Shown: positions 1,421 to 9,820 of the stretch, piece by piece | Position numbering within the stretch: position 1 is the first letter of the stretch | Layout: each line of letters starts with the position of its first letter | Assembly (NCBI GenBank): GCA_030618205.1 | Contig: JAUXDR010000017.1 | Coordinates: forward strand, 1-9,820 | DNA length: 9,820 bases | Direction of reading: 5' to 3' | Source: Deltaproteobacteria bacterium | GTDB lineage: Bacteria; Desulfobacterota; Dissulfuribacteria; Dissulfuribacterales; UBA3076 | The notes under the pieces: generated by a model | Database searches by the model: none | The model's input: only the letters and a program-made list of their open reading frames with translations | What the model was told of the DNA's origin: nothing | Translations under genes and position numbers: made by a program

Positions 1421-3562
1421 TTACTCCCCTAGCTGATAATAATTACGCAATGCAAATTCAGCCTGCTTGCCCTCGTTCCACTGCCCGACCGGCCGAAGGT
1501 ACCCGACGACACGGGAATAGACCTCTGTTTCCTCACCACACTCCGGGCAGCAGTGTTGCTCACCCCGTAGGTAGCCGTGGGTGGGGCAGACTGAAAATGT
1601 AGGCGTAAGAGTGAAATAAGGCAGGCGGTAATTTTCGCAGACCTTGCGAACAAATGCCTTTACGGCCTGCGGGTCGGCTGCGGCTTCTCCGAGGAAGATA
1701 TGCAGGACCGTCCCCCCAGTATATCTTGCCTGCAACTCGTCCTGCAGATCGAGTACCTGGAAAATGTCCTCAGTATAGTTGACCGGCAGTTGTGTTGAGT
1801 TGGTGTAAAAAGGTTTCGAGCCGTTTTCCCCCTCATTGGCGCTACGGATATCAGGATAACGCTCCTTGTCCAGCTTTGCAAAACGATAGGCAGCACCCTC
1901 TGCAGGAGTCGCCTCCAGGTTATAATAATACCCTGTCTCTTCCTGAAACTGGCTGAGTTTTTCCCGCATGAAATCAAGCACCCTTATGGCAAAGGCTGCA
2001 CCTTCTGTTGCACCGATGTCGCAGCCGAGCATATTGAGGCAGGCCTCGTTCATGCCTGTCAAACCGATGGTCGAAAAATGGTTGTACCAGTATTGGCCAT
2101 GATTCTGCTTGACATTGCGCAGATAAAATTTCGTATAGGGATAGAGGCTCTTGTCTGTAAAATTCTCCAGCACCTTGCGCTTGGTCTCAAGGCTTGTCCG
2201 AGAAATCTCCATCAGCCGTTCAAGACGCCTGAAGAAATCGTCTTCGTCAGTGGCCAGGTAGCCAAGGCGCGTCATGTTAATTGTCACCACGCCGATAGAC
2301 CCTGTCAATGGATTGGCACCGAATAACCCGCCGCCGCGCCTTTCAAGGGAACGCAGGTCCAGCCGCAGGCGGCAGCACATGGACCTGGCATCATCAGGCG
2401 ACATGTCTGAATTCACGTAGTTTGCAAAATAGGGAATGCCGTATTTTGCTGTGACTTCCCACAGCCTCTCCAGGCCCGGTGCCTCCCAATCGAAGTCCGG
2501 ATCAATGTTATACGTAGGTATGGGGAAGGTGAAGACCCGGTCTCTCGCATCGCCCTCTGCCAACACTTCAAGAAATGCGCGATTGAACATGATCATTTCG
2601 TGCTGAAAATCCGCATAGGTCTCTTTTTGTAGTTCACCTCCGATGATGACATTTTCTTGGGCCAGCGTGACCGGCGGCTGTACGTCCAACGTAACGTTGG
2701 TAAAAGGAGTCTGGAAACCTACCCGCGTAGGCACATTTACGTTAAAAACAAATTCCTGCAGTGCCTGCTTGACCTCTTTGTATTTAAGGCCGTCAAAACG
2801 GATGAAAGGAGCCAGAAGAGTGTCAAAGCTTGAAAAGGCCTGTGCTCCAGCGGCCTCACCCTGCAATGTGTAAAAGAAATTAATGATCTGTCCGAGCGCA
2901 GTCCTGAAGTGTCGTGCAGGGCTGCTTTCCGCCTTGCCGGGGGCCCCTCTGAAACCGAAGCGCAGCAGGTCCTGAAGGTCCCACCCCACACAGTACACTG
3001 ACAACAGACCCAGGTCGTGGATATGAACTGCGGCGGATGTGTGCGCTTCGCGAACCTCCGGAGTGTAAATCTTGTTGAGCCAGTAAGTCTTGCTGACCTC
3101 GCTTGAGATATAGTTGTTAAGTCCCTGTAAGGAATAGGCCATGTTGCTGTTTTCCCGGACCTTCCAGTCCAGACGTTCCAGATAGCGCTCTATCAGGTCA
3201 AGGTCGGCCTTCTTGACCATCTCCCGGATGCCCGCATGCCGATCTCGATATAGAATATAGGCCTTTGCCGTCCTCTTAAACGGCGAGGCCAACAGCACCT
3301 CTTCCACCATGTCCTGAATTTCTTCAACCGTTGGCACAGTATCCAGAAACACCGTCTGAGCAAGGCTTATGACCCGGATTGTGAGCCGTCGGGCAGTATC
3401 CTCTTTGAATTCACCAGTGGCTCTACCTGCCTTCAGTATGGCAGAGGTAATCTTTGATGACTCAAACGGCACCTGACGCTGGTCACGTTTTCGGATCCGG
3501 GTTAGGCCGATATACTCTGTAATGCTGACTGCCTGTTGGGGAAGCTCAACAACAGTTGTCAT
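1421..3562 (-). CDS. nrdD: Class III (anaerobic) ribonucleoside-triphosphate reductase
   Basis: Cytoplasmic glycyl-radical enzyme that reduces ribonucleoside triphosphates to dNTPs without oxygen. The 713 residues contain an ATP-cone allosteric domain (about 20-115), then the catalytic barrel. Likely active-site cysteines are Cys191 (in VYCVGWDL) and Cys397 (in MCCRL, aligned with the MGCR motif of other NrdD proteins). The C-terminal zinc site is the CPTHGY...HCCPECG segment (Cys659, Cys671, Cys672, Cys675; which four ligands bind is not certain). The glycyl-radical loop SRVVGYLRPVGQWN places the radical on Gly687. There is no Met just ahead of this loop where E. coli NrdD has Met672, the residue tied to formate use. 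This points to a thiol-reductant (NrdD2/NrdD3-like) type. The ATG at 3560-3562 has Shine-Dalgarno GAGAGGA eight bases upstream. The gene is first in an operon with nrdG and sits behind a tandem NrdR-type operator. Confidence 0.96.
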   Translation of the reverse strand: MTTVVELPQQAVSITEYIGLTRIRKRDQRQVPFESSKITSAILKAGRATGEFKEDTARRLTIRVISLAQTVFLDTVPTVEEIQDMVEEVLLASPFKRTAKAYILYRDRHAGIREMVKKADLDLIERYLERLDWKVRENSNMAYSLQGLNNYISSEVSKTYWLNKIYTPEVREAHTSAAVHIHDLGLLSVYCVGWDLQDLLRFGFRGAPGKAESSPARHFRTALGQIINFFYTLQGEAAGAQAFSSFDTLLAPFIRFDGLKYKEVKQALQEFVFNVNVPTRVGFQTPFTNVTLDVQPPVTLAQENVIIGGELQKETYADFQHEMIMFNRAFLEVLAEGDARDRVFTFPIPTYNIDPDFDWEAPGLERLWEVTAKYGIPYFANYVNSDMSPDDARSMCCRLRLDLRSLERRGGGLFGANPLTGSIGVVTINMTRLGYLATDEDDFFRRLERLMEISRTSLETKRKVLENFTDKSLYPYTKFYLRNVKQNHGQYWYNHFSTIGLTGMNEACLNMLGCDIGATEGAAFAIRVLDFMREKLSQFQEETGYYYNLEATPAEGAAYRFAKLDKERYPDIRSANEGENGSKPFYTNSTQLPVNYTEDIFQVLDLQDELQARYTGGTVLHIFLGEAAADPQAVKAFVRKVCENYRLPYFTLTPTFSVCPTHGYLRGEQHCCPECGEETEVYSRVVGYLRPVGQWNEGKQAEFALRNYYQLGE
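1424..1430 (-). promoter_or_regulatory. nrdG ribosome binding site within the end of nrdD
   Basis: On the minus strand the sequence AGGGGAG ends five bases before the GTG at 1418. It comprises the final Gly-Glu codons of nrdD plus the preceding base. This fixes the nrdG start at the GTG and suggests translational coupling of the two proteins. Confidence 0.75.
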
Positions 3563-3976: not shown

Positions 3977-5392
3977 ATGATACCCAAAAGACCAAAAATA
4001 TACCAAACCAACTTCAAAGGATCGAACTGGAGAAACTATCAGAGAAAACTGAAAAGGACCGCCGCAATAAATAAATTTATCAAAAACATCCCTAAATACT
4101 CTGCAGTCCTTCTCATTGTGCTTATTTTTGTTTGCGGAATAATCAGTGGTCTTCTTGGCGGAATTGCATGTCATCATACACAGACACTTAATAGTAACAC
4201 ACAAGATAACAAAGCTGATATCCATCACAGTCAAAAGAAATTAATAACCAAAAGGGATGTTCAGTCCCTGATTAACAGTGAATCCTTTGTAAATATCAAG
4301 GAAAAGGGTTTTGGTTTTGTTTTCAATGAACAAAATTTCAGAGTTGACACGAGTCTTGATGTTCCCCTGCAGCAATTCCTGCTGGACAATTTGGATCAAT
4401 CCACAGCTCGATACATCGGAATTGTGGCCCTGGATCCAACTACAGGCAGAATATTATCAATGGTGAGTTTTGATAAAACAAACCAGCATAACAACCCATG
4501 TATCGACAACAAATTTCCTGCTGCCAGTATTTTTAAAATAGTTACTGCTGCTGCGGCTATTGAAAAATGTGATTTTAATTCAGGCTCCATACTTAAATAC
4601 AATGGCGGAAAATACACATTATACAAATCCCAGCTTAAAAAGCGGACAAACAGATACACCAACAGGATAACATTCAGGGACTCATTCGCTCAGTCCGTTA
4701 ATCCCGTGTTTGGAAAAATCGGTTCGCTTTATCTTGGTAAAACCGTTTTAGAAAACTATGCTGAAGCCTTTGGATTCAACCAAAATATTGATTTTGAAAT
4801 TCCAGTTCCTCCAAGTTCTATTTATTTATCTGATGAACCTTATCAGTGGGCTGAAATTGCCTGCGGATTCAACCACGAAACCACATTATCTCCCCTCCAC
4901 GGGGCATTGATAACATCGGCAATTCTCAACCAGGGCAGGCTGGTAGAACCCACAATTGTCGATCAGATAACTGATGAAACCGGACAGGTCATTTACCGCA
5001 GCCATTTGATCACCCTTAACCAGGCTATTACACCCAAGTCGGCAGAGGTTATTAATAATCTCATGGAGGCCACAATAAAATCCGGCACTTGCAGAAAGGC
5101 TTTCAGGGGTTACCAAAAAGACCAAATCCTTTCCAAGCTCAACATTGGCGGCAAAAGCGGCTCCATTGACAACAAAGCACATGATGTCCGCTATGACTGG
5201 TTTGTGGGATTTGCCGAGGAAAAAGATGGACATGAAAAGCTTGTCATATCAGTTATTGTAGCCCATGAAAAATATATAGGCACAAGAGCAAGTCATTATG
5301 CACGTATTGCAATAAAACAATATTTCCGTAATTGTTTTGCAAAAAAAGATGAAAAAGCGCCTTTTAAAACAGCCTTTGGGATTGTTGATTGA
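3977..5392 (+). CDS. Penicillin-binding protein, monofunctional transpeptidase with one membrane anchor
   Basis: Probably a peptidoglycan D,D-transpeptidase (crosslinking enzyme) facing the periplasm. The 471-residue protein has a basic N-terminus (1-40), one hydrophobic membrane segment (about 41-63), a short linker, and a penicillin-binding transpeptidase domain. The three active-site motifs are present: SIFK (Ser184 nucleophile, Lys187), SVN (240-242), and KSG (393-395, where most family members have KTG). The ALDPTTGRILSMVS strand at 151-164 is typical. There is no glycosyltransferase domain and no room for the large dimerisation module of FtsI or PBP2, so it resembles small PbpA-like proteins more than the standard class B enzymes. 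The ATG at 3977 has no clear Shine-Dalgarno, but no other Met occurs in frame until residue 162, well past the membrane segment. The gene is AT-rich compared with nrdD. Confidence 0.85.
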   Translation: MIPKRPKIYQTNFKGSNWRNYQRKLKRTAAINKFIKNIPKYSAVLLIVLIFVCGIISGLLGGIACHHTQTLNSNTQDNKADIHHSQKKLITKRDVQSLINSESFVNIKEKGFGFVFNEQNFRVDTSLDVPLQQFLLDNLDQSTARYIGIVALDPTTGRILSMVSFDKTNQHNNPCIDNKFPAASIFKIVTAAAAIEKCDFNSGSILKYNGGKYTLYKSQLKKRTNRYTNRITFRDSFAQSVNPVFGKIGSLYLGKTVLENYAEAFGFNQNIDFEIPVPPSSIYLSDEPYQWAEIACGFNHETTLSPLHGALITSAILNQGRLVEPTIVDQITDETGQVIYRSHLITLNQAITPKSAEVINNLMEATIKSGTCRKAFRGYQKDQILSKLNIGGKSGSIDNKAHDVRYDWFVGFAEEKDGHEKLVISVIVAHEKYIGTRASHYARIAIKQYFRNCFAKKDEKAPFKTAFGIVD

Positions 5393-5708: not shown

Positions 5709-6389
5709 ATGAAACAAAATCATATCAAGGAAAAGGAACAGTTCAAAAAACTTTTCAAACAGGAACATATTGATAATTTTGAAGAAAGATTCAAGGTCTT
5801 TGAAGTTTTTCTTCAAACCGAACGTCATGTTACGGTCAGTGAACTGCTTGAGCTTCTTAATGAAAACGGGTATCAATTAGATTCCTCTTTTGTAAGGGAT
5901 ACGCTGAAACTCATGTGCCGCTTCGGTTTTGCCAAGAAAATTAAGTTTGAAGATGGGCCGGTGCGCTATGAACACAGGCATCTTGGCCAGCATCATGACC
6001 ATATGATCTGTACAAAGTGCAGGAATATTATTGAATTTGAGGACCAACAGATTGAGAACCTCCAGATACAGATTGCTGCGGCCCATGGTTTCCACATGCT
6101 TCAGCACAAAATGGAAATCTACGGCATATGTTCCAACTGCCTTAAGACACGCATGCATCCCATGTCACTTGTTATGGCAAAGCAGGGTGAACGCCTCATA
6201 ATCAAGGATTTCACCGGGGGTGCGGGTGCGCGCATGCGTTTATTGACCATGGGTCTGAGAGTGGAAGACGAGCTGGATGTCATTACCAGCCCCGGCAAGG
6301 GACAGATGGTTATTGCCGTGGATTGCAGACGATACGTCATTGGGCGTGGGTTGGCACAGAAGGTATTGGTTGAGCCAAGGAAAAACTAA
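5709..6389 (+). CDS. Fur-family metal regulator fused to a C-terminal FeoA domain
   Basis: The 226-residue protein joins two iron-related modules. Residues about 25-80 form a Fur-type winged helix. Residues about 85-145 form the Fur dimerisation and metal domain: HHDH (95-98), CTKC (Cys101, Cys104), IIEFED, AAAHGFHMLQHKMEIYGIC and CSNC (Cys141, Cys144), which provide the usual regulatory and structural zinc ligands. Residues about 155-224 form a FeoA (SH3-like) domain, with GGAGARMRLLTMGLRVEDEL and GRGLAQKVLVEP. In the recognition helix the usual TVYRTL is FVRDTL, so the DNA-contacting Tyr-Arg pair is changed. The ATG follows Shine-Dalgarno TAAGGGA (5697-5703). It is the first gene of the operon with feoA and feoB. 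Likely roles are iron-responsive control of this operon, modulation of FeoB through the FeoA domain, or both. The domain calls are firm; the function of the fusion is inference. Confidence 0.88.
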   Translation: MKQNHIKEKEQFKKLFKQEHIDNFEERFKVFEVFLQTERHVTVSELLELLNENGYQLDSSFVRDTLKLMCRFGFAKKIKFEDGPVRYEHRHLGQHHDHMICTKCRNIIEFEDQQIENLQIQIAAAHGFHMLQHKMEIYGICSNCLKTRMHPMSLVMAKQGERLIIKDFTGGAGARMRLLTMGLRVEDELDVITSPGKGQMVIAVDCRRYVIGRGLAQKVLVEPRKN

Positions 6390-6428: not shown

Positions 6429-6656
6429 ATGTTGTTAAGCGAAATGAAGGAAGGCCAGACCGGAGTAATTAACCGTGTAGGTGGAAATGGTGCACTGCGC
6501 AGAAGGATACTTGAAATGGGTATCCTCAAGGGTTCGGCGATTTACATAGAGAAATATGCACCCCTGAAAGACCCTCTCGAACTGATTGTTAAGGGCTATC
6601 ATTTATCACTCAGGGTTGAAGAAGCTGCACAAATAACAGTCGATGACGTAAAATAG
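6429..6656 (+). CDS. feoA: Ferrous iron transport protein A (small SH3-like partner of FeoB)
   Basis: Small cytoplasmic protein that assists FeoB, probably by contacting its G domain or membrane part. The 75 residues match the complete FeoA fold: an N-terminal MKEGQTGVINRVGG strand, the helix LRRRILEMGILKGS (about 23-36), then EKYAPLKDPLELIVKGYHLSLRVEEAAQI. The length is normal for the family. The ATG follows a strong Shine-Dalgarno AAGGGGA nine bases upstream, and the gene sits 39 bp after the fur-feoA fusion. It differs clearly in sequence from the FeoA domain of the fusion, so the two are not a recent duplication. The feoB ribosome binding site overlaps its stop codon. Confidence 0.93.
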   Translation: MLLSEMKEGQTGVINRVGGNGALRRRILEMGILKGSAIYIEKYAPLKDPLELIVKGYHLSLRVEEAAQITVDDVK

Positions 6657-6666
6657 GAACGCCTTG

Positions 6667-8847
6667 ATGTCTCAAAAGAGTCTTACAATAGCCCTTGCGG
6701 GCAATCCTAATTCAGGCAAGACAACAATATTCAACAATATTACCGGGACCAGGCAGAAGGTCGGGAACTGGCCTGGTGTAACAGTTGAAAAAAAAGAGGG
6801 TATTGTAAGTAAATACGGATATGAGCTTAAAATTATCGATCTTCCCGGAACTTACAGTTTAACACCCTTTTCCGTAGAAGAGATTATTGCACGGGATTTT
6901 GTCCTTGATGAATGTCCTGATGTTGTAATCGATATTATTGATGCCTCCAACCTGGAACGAAGCCTTTATCTTGCAACCCAGCTAAGGGAGATTGATTGCA
7001 AGGTTTTGTTTGCCCTGAACATGGCTGATATTTCCCGTACACGGGGAATCAAAATCGATGCGGAAAAGCTCTCCGAACTTCTCGATCTACCGATAGTCTT
7101 CACAATCGGAAACAAAAACGAGGGAATAGATGCACTTCTGGAAAAAGCTATAGAACTGGCTGAGTCAGATGTAGATACCAGCGGGAGGCGTAAAGTCAAA
7201 TATAGCAAGGATATTGAGAATTCAATCTCAAAACTCCGGAGCTTTATTGAAAAGAACCCAGAAATATCACTTCCTTATAAGACAAGGTGGACAATAATAA
7301 AACTCCTTGAAAATGATAAAATCGTAAGGGAGCGAGTTCTTCAAAAGGCAGGAGATCAAGGCCGGAATATTATTCAGGAAGTTCAATTACACCGCGAACT
7401 GCTTGCCGACCGCTTTAATGATGATCCTGAAATAGTAATGACAGATGAGCGGTATGGATTTATTGCCGGAATAATAAAGGAAGTTCTTACAACCATTACA
7501 AAGCAGCGTATCGATATATCTCGAAACATAGATTTAGTCCTGACGAACCGGTTTATCGGGTTTCCAATCTTTATATTTTTTATCTGGGCAATGTTCCAGT
7601 TAACCTTTTCACTTGGGGTCTATCCAATGGAATGGTTAGACACCAGTGTTAGCTGGTTTTCAATATCATTAGACGGTCTTCTCCCGGATAGCCTCCTTAA
7701 AGATCTTCTTATAAACGGAGTAATTGCAGGAGTAGGGAGTGTTATAGTCTTTTTGCCAAATATCCTGATACTTTTCTTTTGCATAGCTCTCTTTGAAGAC
7801 ACAGGCTATATGTCAAGAGCTGCCTTTCTTATGGATAGAATAATGCATCTTATCGGGCTTCATGGTAAATCTTTTATACCCATGCTTATGGGGTTCGGCT
7901 GCAGTGTCCCTGCCATCATGGCGACCCGCACCCTTGAAAGCGAAAAGGACCGCATCCTTACTATACTTATTACACCCTTTATGTCATGCTCGGCCAAGCT
8001 GCCAATTTATATTGTACTTACAGGTATTTTTTTTAGCGCCCAAGCCGGCAATGTTATTTTTTGCATTTATTTTGCCGGGATTATACTTGCTATTGTAACA
8101 GGCCGTCTATTTCGTTCTACTCTCTTGAGGGGTGCCGATGCCCCGTTTGTTATGGAATTGCCTCCTTACAGGGTCCCGATGGTAAAAAGCCTGATAATTC
8201 ATATGTGGGACCGAAGCAAGATGTTTCTCAAAAAGATGGGCGGTGTGATACTTATCGGTTCTGTTGTGATATGGACACTCTCGGCATTTCCACGAAATAT
8301 ACAGTACTCCAGCGATTATGTTGCTGAAACCAATAGTGTTATAGTCTTGTATGATACTGAAATTGCAACTGCGAATGAACTTGACAGGCAACATCTCGAG
8401 AAAAAACGGGATGCTGCTATAGCGCAACTTGAAATGGCCCAAAAAACCGAGAAGATGGAAAAGTCCTACATGGGTCGTATCGGGAAAACTCTCGCTCCTG
8501 TGTTTGCTCCTTTAGGAATAGACTGGCGTGGTAGTGTGGCCCTTCTTACCGGTTTTGTCGCCAAAGAGATCGTAGTAAGTACCATGGGAATACTTTATCT
8601 CGCTGGAGATGAAGGATCAGACACTCTCAAGAACGCACTGTTATCATCTGATATGACGCCACTTTCCGCCCTGGCAATAATGGTCTTTGTTCTCTTATAT
8701 CTTCCATGCCTTGCAACAGTAGCGACCATCAAGCAGGAGACCGGTTCCTTTAAGTGGACTTTATTCAGCATTACATACAGCACCTCACTTGCATGGGTTG
8801 CGGCTTTTTGCGTCTATCAAGGGGGGAAGATAATAGGATTAAGTTAA
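6667..8847 (+). CDS. feoB: Ferrous iron transport protein B
   Basis: Inner-membrane Fe(II) importer with a cytoplasmic GTPase domain. The GTPase motifs are clear (numbering from the ATG at 6667): P-loop GNPNSGKT (12-19), switch region QKVGNWPGVTVEKKEG (30-45), DLPG (58-61), and NMAD (118-121). A helical linker follows (about 170-285), then the membrane part with the conserved GCSVPAIMATRTL (411-423), SCSAKLP (440-446) and LYLPCLAT (677-684) motifs, where the cysteines may line the transport path. A hydrophilic, charged stretch (about 550-600) lies between membrane segments. The length of 726 residues is usual for the family. The ATG at 6667 is preferred over the TTG just before it because Shine-Dalgarno AGGAA (6655-6659) ends seven bases upstream of the ATG. 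The AGGAA overlaps the feoA stop, so translation is probably coupled. Confidence 0.97.
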   Translation: MSQKSLTIALAGNPNSGKTTIFNNITGTRQKVGNWPGVTVEKKEGIVSKYGYELKIIDLPGTYSLTPFSVEEIIARDFVLDECPDVVIDIIDASNLERSLYLATQLREIDCKVLFALNMADISRTRGIKIDAEKLSELLDLPIVFTIGNKNEGIDALLEKAIELAESDVDTSGRRKVKYSKDIENSISKLRSFIEKNPEISLPYKTRWTIIKLLENDKIVRERVLQKAGDQGRNIIQEVQLHRELLADRFNDDPEIVMTDERYGFIAGIIKEVLTTITKQRIDISRNIDLVLTNRFIGFPIFIFFIWAMFQLTFSLGVYPMEWLDTSVSWFSISLDGLLPDSLLKDLLINGVIAGVGSVIVFLPNILILFFCIALFEDTGYMSRAAFLMDRIMHLIGLHGKSFIPMLMGFGCSVPAIMATRTLESEKDRILTILITPFMSCSAKLPIYIVLTGIFFSAQAGNVIFCIYFAGIILAIVTGRLFRSTLLRGADAPFVMELPPYRVPMVKSLIIHMWDRSKMFLKKMGGVILIGSVVIWTLSAFPRNIQYSSDYVAETNSVIVLYDTEIATANELDRQHLEKKRDAAIAQLEMAQKTEKMEKSYMGRIGKTLAPVFAPLGIDWRGSVALLTGFVAKEIVVSTMGILYLAGDEGSDTLKNALLSSDMTPLSALAIMVFVLLYLPCLATVATIKQETGSFKWTLFSITYSTSLAWVAAFCVYQGGKIIGLS

Positions 8848-8851
8848 TGAC

Positions 8852-9820
8852 ATGCGAGTAGCCACGGACATCGGAGGCACCTTCACGGATGTGGTTACCC
8901 TGGACGGCAACCACATACGGGGCTGGAAGGTCCTTTCCACGCCGGATAGCCCTGACCGTGCCGTCACTGAAACCATCAGGGACCTTGCTGATTTTTCATC
9001 CTTTTCTCACGGCACCACCGTGGCCACGAACGCGCTGTTGGAAAGAAAAGGCGCAAAAGTCGCCTTTATCACGACCAGGGGCTTTAAGGACCTTCTCTCA
9101 ATCGCCAGGCAAAGAAGGCCAAGGCTTTACGATTTTGATTGTTCCCGGACAACTCCTGTGGCGAGTCGCAACTTATGCTTTGAGGTTGCCGAGCGTCTTG
9201 CCCCTGATGGTACTGTGATCTTGCCCCTGTCTCTAAGCGATACTTTTGCGCTGGCGGATCATGTTATGGAATCCGGCCCAGAGGCCGTGGCGATTTGTCT
9301 TTTGTTTTCCTACAAAAACCCTGCACACGAAATTCTCCTTGAAAAGGCCTTCAAAAAGCACGGCATACCCGTATCCAGGTCTTCAGAGATCATACCGGAG
9401 TTCAGGGAGTTTGAAAGGGCGTCAACCACGGCCATAAACGCCTTTATTCAACCTGTTGTCCAGTCTTACGTGCAAGAGATTCGTAAAACTATCAGGGAGG
9501 TTGGAGGACCCCAGGATTACGACATCATGAAATCCGCAGGCGGTGTGGCGGCATCAGGCGAAATCCATCCTGTTGAACTCTTGCTTTCCGGTCCGGCTGG
9601 AGGTGTATCCGGCGGACTTCTGCTGGCAAGGCTTACAGGAAGAGAAAATCTGATTACCTTTGATATGGGCGGTACAAGCGCCGACTTTTCGGCCATTGTG
9701 GATAATGCCCCCTTATGGACAGATGAAGGCGAGATAGACGGTCTTCCCGTCAGGATTCCCACGCTCGACATCACCACCATCGGCGCAGGCGGCGGCTCAA
9801 TAGCCTGGATGGATAAGGGC
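8852..9820 (+). CDS. Hydantoinase/oxoprolinase A-family protein, N-terminal part (3'-truncated by the window edge)
   Basis: Subunit A-type enzyme of the ATP-dependent hydantoinase / 5-oxoprolinase / acetone carboxylase superfamily, which activates cyclic amides or ketones by phosphorylation in the cytoplasm. The 323 visible residues, open to the last base, begin MRVATDIGGTFTDVV, an ASKHA-type phosphate-binding loop (6-13). They continue with SHGTTVATNALLERKGA (52-68), the Hydant_A_N domain to about residue 175, LLLSGPAGGVSGG (243-255), a second phosphate loop FDMGGTSADFS (270-280), and TIGAGGGSIAW (309-319). The frame is closed by a stop three codons before the ATG at 8852, which fixes the start. 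It begins 4 bp after feoB, but there is no good Shine-Dalgarno at normal distance (AGGA at 8835-8838 is far). Its base composition is visibly richer in G+C than feoB. The substrate cannot be told from this part; a B subunit may follow outside the window. Confidence 0.93.
   Translation, partial: MRVATDIGGTFTDVVTLDGNHIRGWKVLSTPDSPDRAVTETIRDLADFSSFSHGTTVATNALLERKGAKVAFITTRGFKDLLSIARQRRPRLYDFDCSRTTPVASRNLCFEVAERLAPDGTVILPLSLSDTFALADHVMESGPEAVAICLLFSYKNPAHEILLEKAFKKHGIPVSRSSEIIPEFREFERASTTAINAFIQPVVQSYVQEIRKTIREVGGPQDYDIMKSAGGVAASGEIHPVELLLSGPAGGVSGGLLLARLTGRENLITFDMGGTSADFSAIVDNAPLWTDEGEIDGLPVRIPTLDITTIGAGGGSIAWMDKG

Follow-up and report, generated by a model that had tools for sequence, protein, structure and literature searches.

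A Fur–FeoA fusion of the Desulfobacterota that keeps the Fur metal ligands and has lost the Fur base-reading residues

The fusion gene and its neighbours

The window, the whole stretch of 9,820 nucleotides analysed here, contains a feo operon headed by a gene that joins two domains. This gene (5709..6389, +) is a single open reading frame of 226 codons, as the original prediction had it, and its product matches both Pfam FUR and Pfam FeoA above cut-off, with supporting matches of the predicted model and fold. The Fur domain (residues 25–138; 5781..6122, +) comprises a winged helix and a metal/dimerisation domain. It scores 82.8 bits against PF01475 (cut-off 23.1), and in a fold comparison of the predicted model the Fur match spans residues 1–147. 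The FeoA domain, which is SH3-like, follows at residues 152–223 (6162..6377, +), where it was expected; profile and fold both assign it to FeoA, and column comparison and tree place it in a subtype other than that of the operon's stand-alone FeoA. The model has a pTM of 0.55 and leaves the relative placement of the domains unfixed. The protein shares a C-terminal SH3/FeoA-like domain with DtxR/IdeR-type regulators; a Pfam scan to E 0.1 gave no match to the Fe_dep_repress helix-turn-helix domain or the DtxR dimerisation domain, and none to FeoC (PF09012).

Downstream lie a stand-alone feoA (6429..6656, +; open reading frame, Pfam, column comparison), whose product is of the partner type with the APLKDP and SLRVEEA segments, and the ferrous iron transporter gene feoB (6664..8847, +; TIGR00437, 641 bits), which starts at TTG 6664 or ATG 6667. 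The fusion therefore does stand at the head of a feoA–feoB operon.

The remaining genes of the window are ordinary neighbours: an SLT_2 lytic transglycosylase (108–788, +), a radical SAM protein that is likely the NrdG activase (768–1418, −), the anaerobic ribonucleotide reductase NrdD (1421–3562, −) and a penicillin-binding transpeptidase (3977–5392, +). An open frame at 8852–9820 (+) runs past the window end; by eye, we take it to resemble the N terminus of a hydantoinase/oxoprolinase-type protein.

Distribution and origin of the fusion

Both Pfam domains occur in all 120 of the matches listed, out of 2,533 protein matches. Relatives are encoded in 206 stretches of species genomes, of which the best 80 were retained as nearest loci; their records are named Deltaproteobacteria, Desulfobacterota lineages or, in three cases, Proteobacteria. 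In an even sample of 395 Desulfobacterota genomes, 165 gave a match at 1e-30, many of them plain Fur. When the frames were re-read, a full-length fusion was found in at least 68 of the 395, a lower bound, with one locus per genome; these genomes span 29 family codes of the sample (hand count), with open frames. Sampling was confined to protein lists carrying few names or to the phylum to which the nearest genome belongs. A sequencing or frameshift artefact is ruled out, as the intact fusion recurs across database proteins and genomes, and the counts equally rule out a rarity. The original prediction had called the architecture much less familiar than fusions of FeoA-like domains to DtxR/IdeR-type regulators: this stands for the open-licence literature searched, in which we found no description of a Fur–FeoA fusion, and fails for the phylum, in which such proteins are common.

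A Fur-domain tree was built after removal of six DNA-contact columns; in it, 69 fusions group on a single branch, apart from 41 canonical Furs (SH-aLRT 97; unrooted, from a quick search on few columns). The fused FeoA domains likewise form one branch in the FeoA tree (62 rows, support 100). The simplest reading is that the fusion arose once and then spread widely. A plausible route to such fusions is suggested by five further loci (L189–L193), in which fur and feoA-like frames lie in the same reading frame with little beyond a stop codon between them, L190 being the member whose sequence itself was inspected; the layout does not imply that these Furs are the parents.

Metal ligands are kept and base-reading residues are replaced

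The retained metal ligands of the window protein (5826..6140, +; alignment and family counts) make up a sensory site (His40, Glu88, His96 and His98), a second metal site (His95, Asp97, Glu116 and His133) and the zinc cysteines (Cys101, Cys104, Cys141 and Cys144), all invariant in a 22-row alignment with the window. To count residues across the family we used 161 non-redundant fusions, drawn from 305 sequences collected (44 further proteins were left out). The equivalents of sensory His33, Glu81, His88 and His90 and the four zinc cysteines are present in 161/161 at each of the eight positions. The second metal site is less uniform (His87 in 142/161, Glu108 in 142/161 and His125 in 150/161).

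The DNA-reading side is a different matter. In the MgFur study (Deng et al., PMC4506495), Tyr56 and Arg57 are described as reading bases and Lys15 as entering the minor groove; DNA binding of R57A was undetectable, that of Y56A very weak, and that of K15A weakened (977 versus 85 nM). The former DNA-recognition helix of the window protein (residues 59–71, SSFVRDTLKLMCR; 5883..5921, +) is identified by alignment to the Campylobacter and Escherichia coli Furs and is a helix in the model. Its FVRDTL segment aligns with TVYRTL of Campylobacter Fur, so that Tyr56 is replaced by Arg63 and Arg57 by Asp64. When the alignment is extended to the N-terminal loop (residues 22–27, DNFEER; 5772..5789, +), which holds the equivalents of Lys15, Thr17, Gln19 and Arg20, Lys15 is replaced by Asp22. 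Across the family, Tyr56 is kept in 0/161 and Arg57 in a single fusion (L145); the Arg57 position is Asp or Glu in 127/161, and Asp stands in place of Lys15 in 102/161. Positions 56 and 57 also differ from one fusion to the next (RD, RE, AE, ED, SE, EE, AQ and others).

Other Fur-family proteins of the phylum served as controls. At the reader positions, Tyr is found in 51/52 and Arg or Lys in 50/52 of one set, and Tyr in 21/22 and Arg in 22/22 of a smaller one; both sets, which we prefer, were chosen without regard to reader residues and were not de-duplicated, and four miscaught fusions were removed from the larger. The mean charge of the DNA-facing set of 11 positions is −2.3 in fusions versus +3.1 in the 41 canonical Furs, 19 of which had been picked through a YR-type motif that includes the reader (here, too, four miscaught fusions were removed). 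Of 20 canonical regions retrieved for the controls, 6 were dropped, having no sequence with the cysteine/histidine motif. Mean pairwise identity of the metal/dimer domain is 0.52 in 62 fusions versus 0.38 in the 52 other Fur-family proteins; for the reader helix the values are 0.38 versus 0.47. At the level of sequence, the fusions conserve their sensory half better than their reading half, and the reverse applies to the other Fur-family proteins.

On these grounds the fusion probably does not bind DNA in the manner of Fur. One of the two functions originally proposed, a Fur protein with an SH3 domain that operates like that of IdeR, presupposes a DNA-binding Fur and so sits poorly with the replacement of the DNA-reading residues in nearly all members. 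In the clade of the window itself, position 56 is mostly Arg or Lys (178 + 17 of 209 near rows, a redundant set), which could still contact DNA. In addition, no second Fur-family match was found in 5 of 37 fusion genomes (G366, G383, G116, G401 and G249), and two of these, G383 and G116, also gave no DtxR-family match above cut-off. In these two genomes the fusion would therefore be the only candidate of these kinds for iron-dependent transcription, and a residual regulatory role there is conceivable.

The fused FeoA domain and the joining of a second, operon-type FeoA

The fused FeoA domain lies on a separate branch from the stand-alone FeoA of the operon in the FeoA tree (71 columns; 47 of the 83 stand-alone FeoA sequences included). 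Most fused domains are without the APLKDP loop and the SLR..EA segment of the stand-alone protein and carry R.(A/V)(L/I)G.G.A.K instead. Arg212, Glu215 and Pro199 are each found in 83/83 stand-alone FeoA sequences, a set gathered by likeness to the window feoA and so biased to that type. At these sites the window fusion has Gly212, Leu215 and Gln199, and fused domains in general have Gly at 212 (60/62), Leu, Met, Val or Ile at 215 (56/62) and Pro at 199 (34/62). Since the fused domain is without residues that are invariant in the stand-alone protein, its binding to FeoB may differ from that of stand-alone FeoA.

In three of the six feoB loci that have no separate feoA, one longer frame encodes a FUR domain and two FeoA domains (L170:1213-2265, L182:2932-3972 and L186:2977-3993). 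The next feo gene after each of these triple-domain proteins is feoB, at gaps of 9, 449 and 12 nt, respectively. By eye, the database protein P0131 has the same Fur–FeoA–FeoA layout. In the FeoA tree, the last domain of all four proteins groups with the stand-alone FeoA of the operon and not with the fused type; that of L170 shares 87% identity with the free FeoA of L158. Three changes on the tree are needed to account for the four proteins, so that the last FeoA was probably joined more than once, as judged from a 71-column tree.

Genomic context and upstream sequences

In 35 of the 68 phylum loci the fusion is followed by a feoB gene in the same orientation (29 with and 6 without a separate feoA). 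In the other 33 there is no feoB beside the fusion, which is followed by proC in 11 and by neither in 22 (one at a contig edge). Among the 80 nearest loci, feoA and feoB lie downstream in 50, feoA and then the contig end in 2, and neither in 28 (two at a contig end).

A radical SAM gene is a common neighbour in 19 of 24 inspected loci without feo. This second conserved context is exemplified by L029:6825-11002, from which the gene names are taken: radical SAM, metallophosphatase, SH3, PfkB kinase and TPR proteins are encoded downstream, with no feo gene. In a third context (L127, L128, L136–L138, L143 and L144), the fusion is followed by proC and a divergent canonical fur lies upstream.

At three loci (L135 in genome G059, L167 in G159 and L185 in G096), feoB adjoins the fusion and no FeoA gene was found between them. 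In G159, which is 88% complete, the fusion holds the sole FeoA domain found and precedes the sole FeoB found. Apart from the fusion, G059 yielded a single FeoA domain, on a DtxR-type protein upstream of a second feoB; G096 has two further FeoA matches. The G059 protein (L238:618-1373) is a DtxR-type regulator that ends in a partner-type FeoA domain, a parallel fusion of regulator and FeoA. FeoC matches were found in 3 of the 37 fusion-carrying genomes searched for them, one of them strong; the idea that the fusion has taken the place of FeoC was considered and set aside.

Upstream regions were searched for operators in 79 near rows (the window plus 78 of the 80 nearest loci) and in the 68 phylum loci. 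An E. coli-type Fur box of at least 11/14, equalled by no shuffle, was found at five near loci (L006, L007, L014, L067 and L070). Upstream of the window fusion the best such box is 10/14, which 28 of 100 shuffles matched, and nothing convincing was found. The delta-type Fur box TGAAAATNATTTTCA, which was picked after the E. coli-type hits had been seen, is identical to the core of the consensus given by Rodionov et al. 2004 (PMC545781), who describe a delta-type Fur box; at 12/14 or better it occurs in 7/79 near rows versus 0.9 expected, and in 0/68 phylum loci. A search for a general dyad, which is a weak test, gave none in excess (9/79 and 7/68, versus 5.8 and 5.4 in shuffles), and a sigma-70 promoter scan was close to chance (3 versus 2.5).

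Proposed function and alternatives

We propose that the fusion is a Fur-derived iron sensor, no longer a DNA reader of the Fur type, that would act at the protein level on FeoA/FeoB, and assign this reading a probability of about 0.5. It is favoured by the loss of the reader alongside retention of the sensor, by the operon linkage and by the fusion of operon-type FeoA. The negative charge of the DNA-facing set, the inverted pattern of conservation, the arrangement in G159 and, as a weak test, the lack of a general upstream dyad point the same way. Against it count the divergent subtype of the fused FeoA, the 33 of 68 loci with no adjoining feoB, the Arg or Lys at position 56 in the window's clade and the five genomes with no further Fur-family match. 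The suggestion that one protein both senses iron and contacts FeoB gains from the operon linkage and the fusion of operon-type FeoA (feoB downstream in 35/68 loci, operon-type FeoA fused in some lineages); action on FeoA/FeoB, taken by itself, may be put at roughly even odds. The wider proposition, that across the phylum a Fur-family protein gave up DNA and became the iron-sensing subunit of the FeoB complex, providing post-translational feedback on import, is advanced more tentatively.

Under the proposed mechanism, the metal/dimerisation domain would dimerise and bind Fe(II) at the sensory site that it has in common with Fur, as the kept ligands suggest. The metal-driven movement of the winged helices, which in Fur opens and closes the DNA clamp, would instead alter a protein contact. 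The fused FeoA, together with the co-encoded FeoA of partner type, would position this switch at the cytosolic G-protein region of FeoB, iron at the classical Fur site being signalled through the FeoA domains to the transporter. Importer activity would thereby track cytosolic iron, most likely with import damped when iron is plentiful.

An alternative is that the fusion has remained a transcription factor but with its reader rebuilt: Arg63 and its neighbours would read a new operator, and FeoA would stabilise the protein in its metal-bound state, like the SH3 domain of IdeR/DtxR. The model and its fold match show an intact winged-helix fold, the Arg20 equivalent is present in 135/161 fusions and position 56 is Arg or Lys in 88/161; the five genomes without another Fur-family match would also suit such a role. 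DtxR-type regulators carry C-terminal FeoA-like domains, and one of them, PgMntR, bound neither Mn nor DNA once its last FeoA domain had been removed, according to PMC4805248. However, the acidic residues that predominate at the Arg57 and Lys15 positions, the variation of positions 56 and 57 among fusions, unlike a conserved reader, and the absence of an enriched dyad upstream all argue against a redesigned reader, and we consider it unlikely.

The fusion might also act as an anti-Fur, pairing with canonical Fur into a dimer with a single reader while itself tethered to FeoB or FeoA, which would let the state of the transporter feed back on Fur. By reading of the loci, canonical fur is a neighbour of the fusion in 22 of 68 (upstream in the same orientation in 13 and divergent in 9; an automatic count with stop-to-stop frames, which misses overlapping frames, gives 7 and 8). 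There is a precedent of a kind in Desulfovibrio desulfuricans FUR2, which is without a DNA-binding domain and for which PMC545781 names non-functionality or inactive heterodimers as possibilities, and the delta-type box exceeds expectation in the near rows. But no canonical fur was found in the fetched flank of the other 46 loci, five fusion genomes show no other Fur-family match with which to pair, and the delta-type box is absent at that threshold from the phylum loci. Such a role is improbable. Least probable is a decayed Fur that does no more than store or buffer iron at its metal site, or a functionless relic, an idea that accommodates the lost reader and the several genomic contexts but not metal ligands invariant in 161/161, open frames in 29 family codes or a fused FeoA domain conserved at a mean identity of 0.44.

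Should the protein-level sensor be borne out, the Fur family would include members that are not transcription factors, and the current names of such genes, 'Fur family transcriptional regulator' or 'transcriptional repressor', would be wrong. The natural joining of a Fur sensor to FeoA, in some cases with the operon's own FeoA as well, suggests that FeoA can carry an iron signal to the transporter. The combination of a lost reader and a fully kept sensor yields sharp, testable predictions.

Comparison with known systems

The fusion shares with Fur (PF01475) the winged helix, the metal/dimerisation domain, the sensory ligands and the zinc cysteines, but differs in the replacement of Tyr56, Arg57 (mostly by an acidic or neutral residue) and usually Lys15, and in the added C-terminal FeoA. 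Its FeoA domain (PF04023) is on another branch than the operon FeoA and mostly without the APLKDP and SLR..EA segments of the latter. DtxR, IdeR and MntR have the C-terminal SH3/FeoA domain in common with the fusion, whereas its N-terminal part is Fur, with the reader lost.

FeoC, a winged-helix protein that is smaller than the fusion and not of Fur origin, offers a functional analogy. Each places a winged helix in a feo operon, and by this analogy the target of the fusion, too, would be FeoB rather than DNA; the window fusion differs in having no Pfam FeoC match. The FeoC of gammaproteobacterial feo operons binds FeoB, as cited in PMC8980893. The same source terms the cooperation of FeoA and FeoB enigmatic, ascribes to FeoA in its title a role in stabilising GTP-bound FeoB, and reports from exchange experiments on the natural Bacteroides FeoAB fusion that FeoA and a motif of NFeoB were protected. 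In Bacteroides FeoAB, FeoA is joined to FeoB; in the Fur–FeoA fusion, FeoA is joined to an iron-sensor module.
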